This document shows positions 10,958 through 59,612 of a stretch of DNA of 64,000 nucleotides, in pieces (within the stretch, counting starts at the first letter, position 1; every line of letters starts with the position of its first letter). The stretch is from Marinobacter sp. SS13-12 (lineage in GTDB: Bacteria > Pseudomonadota > Gammaproteobacteria > Pseudomonadales > Oleiphilaceae), in contig NZ_JASSUA010000001.1 of assembly GCF_030227115.1 (NCBI RefSeq), positions 2,666,001 to 2,730,000 on the forward strand, given 5' to 3'. Below the pieces are notes generated by a model. That model did not search any database. It saw only the letters and a program-made list of their open reading frames with translations, and had not been told where the DNA came from. Both the position numbers and the translations under genes were made by a program.

Positions 10958-10989
10958 CGTAGGTCGGATTAGCGCAGCGTAATCCGACA
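10958..10989. repeat. REP-like short palindrome, copy A1
   Basis: GTCGGATTA pairs with TAATCCGAC around GCGCAGCG, flanked on the left by CGTAG. Seven copies of this palindrome occur in the window, all outside genes. This one is single and lies 28 bp before long hairpin A. Confidence 0.85.
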
Positions 10990-11017
10990 ATAACCTGGCC
11001 AAACGGTGCAAGCCACA

Positions 11018-11112
11018 GCAAGCAGGGCCTCTCAAAACACGCCGCAAGTACGTCCATGTAGGCTCGATCGGGCCATCCCTGGCCCTCCACGGTTTTGAGA
11101 GGCCCTGCTTGC
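11018..11112. repeat. Long-hairpin element A (21-bp stem, 53-nt loop)
   Basis: Bases 11018-11038 are the exact reverse complement of 11092-11112, giving a perfect 21-bp stem that ends in AAAAC/GTTTT. The loop, 11039-11091, is exactly 53 nt. Read on the minus strand it matches the loop of element B at 41 of 53 positions. The stem arms differ from those of B and C yet remain fully complementary. The element sits between aroC and the MFS gene, in inverted orientation relative to B and C. Confidence 0.9.
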
Positions 11113-11155
11113 CGCGGCGGTCAGGCTTCTGTGATAACTCTCTGGAGATTTCGTT

Positions 11156-14402: not shown

Positions 14403-14436
14403 CGTAGGTCGGATTAGCCGAAGGCGTAATCCGACA
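14403..14436. repeat. REP-like short palindrome, copy B1
   Basis: CGTAGGTCGGATTA pairs through GTCGGATTA with TAATCCGAC around GCCGAAGGCG. It is in forward orientation and forms a head-to-head pair with B2, 22 bp to the right. Confidence 0.85.
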
Positions 14437-14491: not shown

Positions 14492-14529
14492 ATGAATCGT
14501 TTGTTGCAGGCTCGAATAAGGTTCGAGAA

Positions 14530-14634
14530 GCATGGCGACAGGGGCCTCCCAAAACCGTGGAGCGCCAGGGACGGCGCGACCGAGCCCCCATGGATGGGTT
14601 CACGGCGTGTTTTGGGAGGTCCCTGTCGCCATGC
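14530..14634. repeat. Long-hairpin element B (26-bp stem, 53-nt loop)
   Basis: Bases 14530-14555 pair with 14609-14634. Of 26 pairs, 25 are Watson-Crick and one is a G-T wobble (14544 with 14620). The stem ends in AAAAC/GTTTT and closes a loop of exactly 53 nt containing GCCAGGGACGGC. It lies in the divergent region between the LysR gene and leuC, about 130 bp before leuC. Confidence 0.9.
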
Positions 14635-14702
14635 GACCTTCACCAAGCCTAATATGCCGAACAGGAATGCACAACATAAAAAACATGAATTGAGGTTATC
14701 CA

Positions 14703-16878: not shown

Positions 16879-16911
16879 TGTCGGATTACGCCTTCGGCTA
16901 ATCCGACCTAC
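16879..16911. repeat. REP-like short palindrome, copy D1 (inverted)
   Basis: TGTCGGATTA and TAATCCGACCTAC pair around CGCCTTCGGC. It lies 28 bp after the leuD stop and forms an outward-facing pair with D2. Confidence 0.85.
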
Positions 16912-16925
16912 ATCGGATCGCGAAC

Positions 16926-16957
16926 CGTAGGTCGGATTAGCGAAGCGTAATCCGACA
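16926..16957. repeat. REP-like short palindrome, copy D2
   Basis: CGTAGGTCGGATTA pairs with TAATCCGACA around GCGAAGCG. It ends 26 bp before the leuB start. No long hairpin accompanies this pair. Confidence 0.85.
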
Positions 16958-59367: not shown

Positions 59368-59401
59368 TGTAGGTCGGATTAGCCGAAGGCGTAATCCGAC
59401 A
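59368..59401. repeat. REP-like short palindrome, copy C1
   Basis: GTCGGATTA and TAATCCGAC pair around GCCGAAGGCG. It starts 3 bp after the acuI stop and is in forward orientation, like B1. Confidence 0.85.
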
Positions 59402-59422
59402 ACTGTTCGCGGCAAACCACAT

Positions 59423-59456
59423 TGTCGGATTACGGCTTTGCCTAATCCGACCTACG
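59423..59456. repeat. REP-like short palindrome, copy C2 (inverted)
   Basis: This is an inverted copy ending in TAATCCGACCTACG, 21 bp after C1. The pair faces inward, exactly as B1-B2. Confidence 0.85.
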
Positions 59457-59485
59457 TTTGACTGGGAGAAAAGTTCGCGAGAATG

Positions 59486-59584
59486 AAGAGGGGGCCGGTA
59501 ACCAAAACTGTGCGGAGCCAGGGATGGCGGAGCTCAAGCCGAACAGGACGTCTTGAGGCGTGTTTTGGTTACCGGCCCCCTCTT
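59486..59584. repeat. Long-hairpin element C (23-bp stem, 53-nt loop)
   Basis: Bases 59486-59508 are the exact reverse complement of 59562-59584, ending in AAAAC/GTTTT. The loop is exactly 53 nt and contains GCCAGGGATGGC, as in element A. It lies 29 bp after palindrome C2 and between the convergent acuI and DUF934 genes, so it could also act as a terminator; TTGTTC follows the right arm. Confidence 0.9.
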
Positions 59585-59612
59585 TGTTCGTTAGGGGAGT
59601 CAAAAAGAAGAC

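Follow-up and report, generated by a model that had tools for sequence, protein, structure and literature searches.

A dispersed YPAL-like hairpin repeat of Marinobacter with candidate two-site CsrA docks and stem arms that change together

We describe a family of long hairpins, three copies of which (A, B and C) lie between genes in a 64,000-nucleotide stretch of the Marinobacter sp. SS13-12 genome (contig NZ_JASSUA010000001.1, positions 2,666,001 to 2,730,000; hereafter the window). The reading we lean towards, with moderate confidence, is that these are YPAL-like RNA repeats, scattered through the genome, by which host transcripts would offer the global regulator CsrA a two-site dock. Each copy would be an RNA element of ~110 nt, read on the strand carrying GGA motifs, in which two CANGGA hairpins sit in a junction closed by a helix, mostly of 25-29 bp, whose sequence is nearly free. 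With their GGAs 20-22 nt apart, these hairpins would be spaced so that a single CsrA dimer could dock on both. Transcription would come most often by read-through from the upstream gene, and a transcribed copy would recruit or titrate CsrA on its transcript, affecting stability; ~100 copies would make ~200 CsrA sites per genome. The arms of the helix would be kept complementary by copying one arm from the other, most likely when replication switches template at the hairpin; loop inversion could arise in the same way.

All three hairpins lie where a preliminary description of the window had placed them, each with a core of 53 nt, and the inverted core of copy A is identical to that of copy B at 41 of 53 positions. 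Their stems, given there as 21, 26 and 23 bp, extend to 27, 26 and 28 bp when 2, 1 and 2 G-T pairs are allowed. On each strand, each site folded 7.1 to 8.5 standard deviations better than its dinucleotide shuffles, none of 200 shuffles equalling it. When the window was searched with a covariance model built from 20 hairpin copies of this genome, exactly three matches were found, namely A, B and C (E 6e-21 to 4e-17), which belong to the model's own training copies.

These 20 copies came from a search of the genome with the core motif, which gave 23 sites: 20 were hairpins with stems of 24-33 bp, and three exact motif matches were stemless (L002, L004 and L008). The preliminary description had proposed such a model-based search and had allowed that no further copies might turn up; the model matched at least 107 distinct places in the genome. 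This count is a lower bound, since 150 of 1965 first-look candidates were scored; 110 matches were listed, three of which are the opposite strand of other listed sites, and one is weak (E 0.047). The stem measures 25-29 bp in 89 of the 107 copies (modal length 28) and the core 52-59 nt in 104, the whole element coming to ~110 nt. Thus, the fixed 53-nt loop of the preliminary description does not hold for the family, and what was taken for a conserved loop consists of two small, covarying hairpins with CANGGA that had been overlooked. Two hairpins with CANGGA in their loops are present in 102 of 107 copies, and the GGA-to-GGA distance is 20-22 nt in 101 of these. Copy C, whose second hairpin is ACAGGACG with an incomplete CANGGA, is among the five copies without two motifs. 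At the variable base of CANGGA, the 102 copies have T (64), G (30) or A (8) in hairpin 1 and T (52), G (41), C (5) or A (4) in hairpin 2. The loop variants were CATGGATG (97), CAGGGATG (38), CAGGGACG (35), CATGGACG (21), CAAGGATG (10) and CACGGACG (5).

The long helix and both inner hairpins covary. Among the 20 copies of this genome, retained double changes occur at 30 of 38 pairs. We also aligned 100 matches from 76 of 80 loci in named genomes; this alignment was fitted to the structure, its loci were chosen by the second-hairpin pattern, and three rows are the opposite strand of other rows. Double changes occur there at 37 of 38 pairs, including 29 of the 30 pairs of the outer helix, and 94.5% of cells are paired, versus 56.1% after shuffling and 37-47% when slid. 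The sequence of the stem is nearly free: the outer 18 bases have a mean identity, uncorrected for composition, of 40% between copies of this genome, and the closest pair among the 107 copies shares 16 of 18 bases, none being identical. In 58 of 107 copies the motif CC[AG]A occurs no more than 14 nt past the downstream end of the stem, versus 12 of 107 at control positions, which suggests that the element may extend past the hairpin. A TTYGG/CCRAA outer helix extending the stem was rejected, as 13 joint cases lacked covariation and only the downstream CC[AG]A was enriched.

Relatives of the family occur across the Gammaproteobacteria. All 18 other genomes of the genus had matches, from 3 to 130 per genome, the high counts being lower bounds since 132 candidates were scored per genome. 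Across the order, under stricter filters and with 26 candidates scored per genome, 51 of 145 genomes and 37 of 91 genera had a match at E 1e-5. When named genomes were scanned with a consensus, at least 120 stretches were returned, in Marinobacter, Rheinheimera, Idiomarina, Microbulbifer, Methylotuvimicrobium, Stenotrophomonas, Luteimonas, Yersinia similis, Pectobacterium and others; the 80 listed ones were used, and these are the 80 loci of which the covariance model matched 76. With a 56-base core stretch of copy B as the sole query, three plasmid records matched, and neither the E. coli collection nor any of 50,697 phage records did.

We compared the inner hairpins with known CsrA sites. 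The consensus obtained by systematic evolution of ligands by exponential enrichment (SELEX) is RUACARGGAUGU, its GGA lying in a hairpin loop and both ACA and GGA being invariant (PMC4347634; here and below, statements from the literature refer to the accessible parts of the sources). SELEX winners have mostly six-base loops, with AC and GU pairing, on hairpins of mostly four or fewer contiguous pairs, and one CsrA dimer bridges sites 10-63 nt apart, best at more than 18 (PMC7652899). In sequence, the second hairpin resembles this consensus: of 102 copies, 87 have ACANGGA there and 85 have the longer NACANGGAYGT. The combination of GGA in hairpin loops with two sites 10-63 nt apart was found in the 102 of 107 copies that carry two CANGGA. 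The genome has one csrA gene, whose product is close to the RsmA/CsrA proteins of solved structures (E 9e-31) and carries L4 and R44, numbered from the Met aligned to RsmA. L4 is an RNA-binding residue of CsrA. R44 has been named as another (PMC7652899). From these features we infer that the element may bind CsrA, and that its copies may titrate CsrA and affect their host genes.

Mispairs in the stems indicate which strand is used. A structure acting as DNA should give G-T and A-C equally. Read on the GGA strand, G-U exceeded A-C by 53:7 in this genome (104 copies), 14:0 in a sister genome, G016 (30 copies), 26:3 in other families (33 copies) and 13:4 in further copies of the genus (40 copies); three copies of this genome and one from other families, with stems below 20 bp, and one weak match in L129 were excluded. 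The excess of G-U therefore points to RNA of the GGA strand. We determined gene context with a home-made open reading frame caller; four copies overlap a called gene, and for three no gene was called on one side. The upstream gene is co-oriented with the copy in 66 of 104 cases (p 0.008) and in 52 of 82 unpaired copies (p 0.02), and in this genome the G-U:A-C ratio is 38:2 with a co-oriented upstream gene versus 15:5 without (Fisher p 0.036). Together, these results support transcription of the GGA strand, often by read-through, which does not explain all copies. Convergent spacers hold 27 copies and divergent spacers 14 (p 0.06). In the window, copy A lies between genes for chorismate synthase and a major facilitator superfamily protein, copy B between a LysR-type gene and an aconitase-family gene, which we take to be leuC, and copy C between genes for a zinc dehydrogenase and a DUF934 protein.

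Several observations weigh against an RNA dock for CsrA. The strict sequence TACARGGATGT is present in only 4 of 102 second hairpins and ACANGGA in only 23 of 102 first hairpins, some of which have stems longer than those typical of SELEX hairpins. All 29 genomes searched, this one included, have csrA, and 7 of the same 29 have no match to the element; since genomes with and without the element alike carry csrA, the gene is a prerequisite but is otherwise hardly informative. As to the strand, the pooled p for the G-U:A-C count of the four sets, 106:14, overstates significance, because 28 of the 30 sister-genome copies are orthologues of copies in this genome and the sets are dependent. Among copies lacking a co-oriented upstream gene, neither class taken singly reaches a significant G-U excess (11:4 and 4:1), and part of the excess could stem from transcription-linked C-to-T mutation. 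Furthermore, 24 of 104 copies, copy A among them, are antisense to both neighbours, and between co-directional genes the bias towards the sense strand is weak (39:24, p 0.08).

The arms of the helix change together faster than their flanks. In the retrieved parts of G016, which is 95% identical to this genome at the one locus compared, 87 of the 107 sites were mapped on both sides. Of these, 64 were compared, leaving out 22 that are more than 75 bases shorter and one that is more than 110 bases longer in G016. A stem was present in both genomes at 63 of the 64, and the loop was inverted at 8 of these 63 orthologous hairpins, one of them doubtful (55% loop identity, perhaps another copy). Unflipped sites whose loops were at least 90% alike numbered 46; of their 1104 stem pairs, 173 (15.7%) had changed on both sides and 82 on one side only. 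Flanks at these sites were 93.9% identical (6.1% differing) and loops 96.9%. Independent change of the two arms, at the rate seen in the flanks, would give ~4 double changes; thus, independent compensating mutations are not easily the source. A first pass over 28 sites had given 129 pairs changed on both sides, 28 changed on one side and 515 unchanged, with five flips. Turnover was uneven, as 14 of 44 full-stem sites had no double change and 18 had five or more, and double changes often fell in runs. At one site (C1:1629151 versus L146), both arms showed a matching change in length. Some sites whose loops match poorly may have had their copy replaced by another. The preliminary description had read double changes in the hairpins as a sign of either selection for a structure or a process that makes one arm from the other; the evidence favours both together, given the G-U excess on one side and double changes beyond flank divergence on the other.

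We also read eight sites at which G016 is shorter. Three retain half an element, four have none and one is a pair cut to a single copy. The four element-free sites had neither a recognisable remnant nor a clean junction, and no clean empty site with a target duplication was seen among the eight. In the three half-deleted copies, the surviving arm was nearly unchanged; slow change of a lone arm would, as far as three cases go, fit a process that requires the hairpin.

The preliminary description could name no described family. This holds only in part, as YPAL/RU-2 of Yersinia has a homologous core and TwoAYGGAY (RF01731) scores just below its cut-off. The YPAL core is identical to that of copy B at 39 of 48 positions and to that of copy A at 39 of 46, with alignment scores of 29 and 31; 500 shuffles of the B core scored no higher than 15. 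YPAL/RU-2 is likewise a dispersed, intergenic, long hairpin, associated with upstream genes and perhaps affecting RNA stability (PMC2759123, PMC2229807), and mobility has been reported for it, with duplication of 3-26 bp of the target, which lies at or beside a dyad symmetry (PMC2229807). However, YPAL is described as a single repeat of ~168 bp, whereas the element here is ~110 nt, with closely paired stems of free sequence. No paper in the literature searched, which covered a minority of subscription papers, names both YPAL and CsrA.

TwoAYGGAY, characterised by two hairpins that each end in an AYGGAY loop, has already been proposed to bind CsrA (PMC4333381) and is listed for the human gut, Gammaproteobacteria and Clostridiales (PMC2864571). 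Its external stem is poorly conserved in sequence (Rfam v11; PMC4333381), as is the outer helix here, with its double changes in 29 of 30 pairs. Against the TwoAYGGAY cut-off of 43 bits, none of the 44 listed matches in this genome passed (best 42.6; 150 of 204 candidates scored), the window had no match at the gathering cut-off, and three loci of other families scored 35.2, 32.3 and 32.0 bits. The variable loop base is a pyrimidine, as in AYGGAY, in 64 first and 57 second hairpins out of 102 each, but is often G in our element. Because YPAL measures ~168 bp and TwoAYGGAY scores stay below the cut-off, the element is not filed as a proven member of either; it is filed as a variant of the YPAL/TwoAYGGAY kind. 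The consensus of a third family, Ysr224 (RF02770), resembles the reverse complement of the element core. In the rows compared it matches the strand opposite to the element, and none of 36 listed matches reaches its 70-bit cut-off. Compared with L129 and this genome, Ysr224 appears to model the antisense strand of the repeat core, so its listed strand may be open to question; we infer that it is the same repeat annotated on the opposite strand.

CsrB carries ~20 GGA motifs. CsrB and the RsmX-Y-Z sponges would act alike, sequestering CsrA with GGA hairpins, but they are described as highly expressed small RNAs with numerous sites (PMC4333381), whereas each dispersed copy here has two. Repetitive extragenic palindromes (REPs) and their BIME and REPIN arrangements are likewise high-copy intergenic palindromes, sometimes in inverted pairs. 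However, REPs are 20-40 bp long and many are tagged GTAG or CGTC (PMC3733652), whereas our element is ~110 nt with a stem of free sequence, and we saw no fixed tag at the stem base in the copies inspected. An e-value scan of seven loci against Rfam gave 24 matches, all below gathering scores; apart from those to Ysr224 and TwoAYGGAY, the matches are mostly to microRNA precursors, some with a lower E than TwoAYGGAY, and we judged them chance fits to long hairpins.

Copies lying close together have a preferred arrangement. In this genome, 11 of 11 pairs less than 500 bp apart point outward (minus then plus), for example at G000 C1:2382753-2383142, and their order is independent of the direction of neighbouring genes. 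Nine close outward pairs were found among the named loci (L266, with a weak partner, L270, L277, L280, L283, L287, L291, L299 and L305), the exceptions being three adjacent weak matches in L247 and L304, which are tandem. Other families have outward pairs in L072, L073, L121, L123 and L126, and L129 holds one inward pair and one weak outward pair. GTAG-type REPs lie within ~125 bp of all three window hairpins (Table 1) and occupy several gaps between outward pairs elsewhere.

Table 1. Copies of the hairpin repeat and REP palindromes in the window
Feature	Position in window	Strand	Details
Copy A	11011..11119	-	Covariance model match; 27-bp stem 11012-11038 / 11092-11118; core 11039-11091
Copy B	14528..14636	+	Covariance model match; 26-bp stem 14530-14555 / 14609-14634
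Core of copy B	14556..14608	+	The 53-nt loop of the preliminary description; contains two hairpins
Hairpin 1 of copy B	14562..14577	+	GCGCC-AGGGAC-GGCGC; predicted CsrA-type site; family covariation
Hairpin 2 of copy B	14587..14598	+	CCCATGGATGGG; predicted CsrA-type site, CCA instead of ACA before NGGA; family covariation
Copy C	59481..59589	+	Covariance model match; 28-bp stem; core 59509-59561
GTAG-type REP palindromes (TAGGTCGGATTA)	10960-10971, 14405-14416, 16899-16939, 59370-59454		6 matches versus 0.06 expected

Could the copies be mobile DNA rather than RNA docks? A MITE-like (miniature inverted-repeat transposable element) unit, with a hairpin that a transposase or recombinase recognises as single-stranded DNA and an incidental likeness to CsrA sites, would account for the high copy number and patchy distribution, for the outward inverted pairs and for loop inversion between sister genomes, and the homologous core of YPAL comes from a repeat reported to move. 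The four shorter sister-genome places without an element or recognisable remnant also allow for insertion. However, three other shorter places keep half an element and so record loss by deletion, and another is a pair reduced to one copy; none of the eight is a clean empty site with a duplication. Recent copying of whole units is not visible either, as no two of the 107 outer stems are identical, and a strand-specific excess of G-U is unexpected for a DNA structure. We consider this explanation unlikely. That the copies act as RNA in another way, as REP-like hairpins at mRNA 3' ends, seems less probable still. Here the helix would block 3' exonucleases or aid termination, and the inner hairpins would bind another factor or nothing. 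The tendency of copies to follow a co-oriented gene and to favour convergent over divergent spacers would suit such a role. In Yersinia, ERIC repeats have been reported to influence adjacent genes by means of RNA hairpins, and YPAL perhaps to influence the stability of RNA. Yet if only the helix mattered, there would be no need for a pair of CANGGA hairpins with a constant spacing of 20-22 nt. In addition, the copies inspected have no U-run after their stems; they are thus not standard intrinsic terminators, and intrinsic termination is not favoured as the main function.

A separate alternative concerns only the stems and is compatible with any of these functions. Ordinary selection for RNA pairing, through mutation and compensation with no copying between arms, would accord with the G-U intermediates, which exceed A-C, with pairing maintained across taxa and with the 82 pairs changed on one side only. 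It does not readily yield 173 double changes where ~4 are expected, often in runs, or the matching length change in both arms, and the nearly unchanged surviving arms of the half-deleted copies, few as they are, also speak against it. We regard compensation by itself as very doubtful. With arm copying included, the dock for CsrA remains the reading we prefer, and it has a bolder extension, which we put forward as speculative and rather improbable. Portable two-site docks would wire ~100 transcripts per genome to one regulator, with stems re-made by arm copying and loop inversion switching each dock on or off, giving a phase-variable network at the RNA level across the Gammaproteobacteria.

If the copies bind CsrA, each genome would owe ~200 sites for this regulator to a repeat so far regarded as a miniature insertion sequence, linking repeat biology to the Csr/Rsm system and tying together three things described separately: YPAL, TwoAYGGAY and Ysr224. 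In addition, arm-to-arm copying and loop inversion at hairpins may have left a natural record in the stems, from which the rate and tract length of template switching could then be read in closely related genomes.
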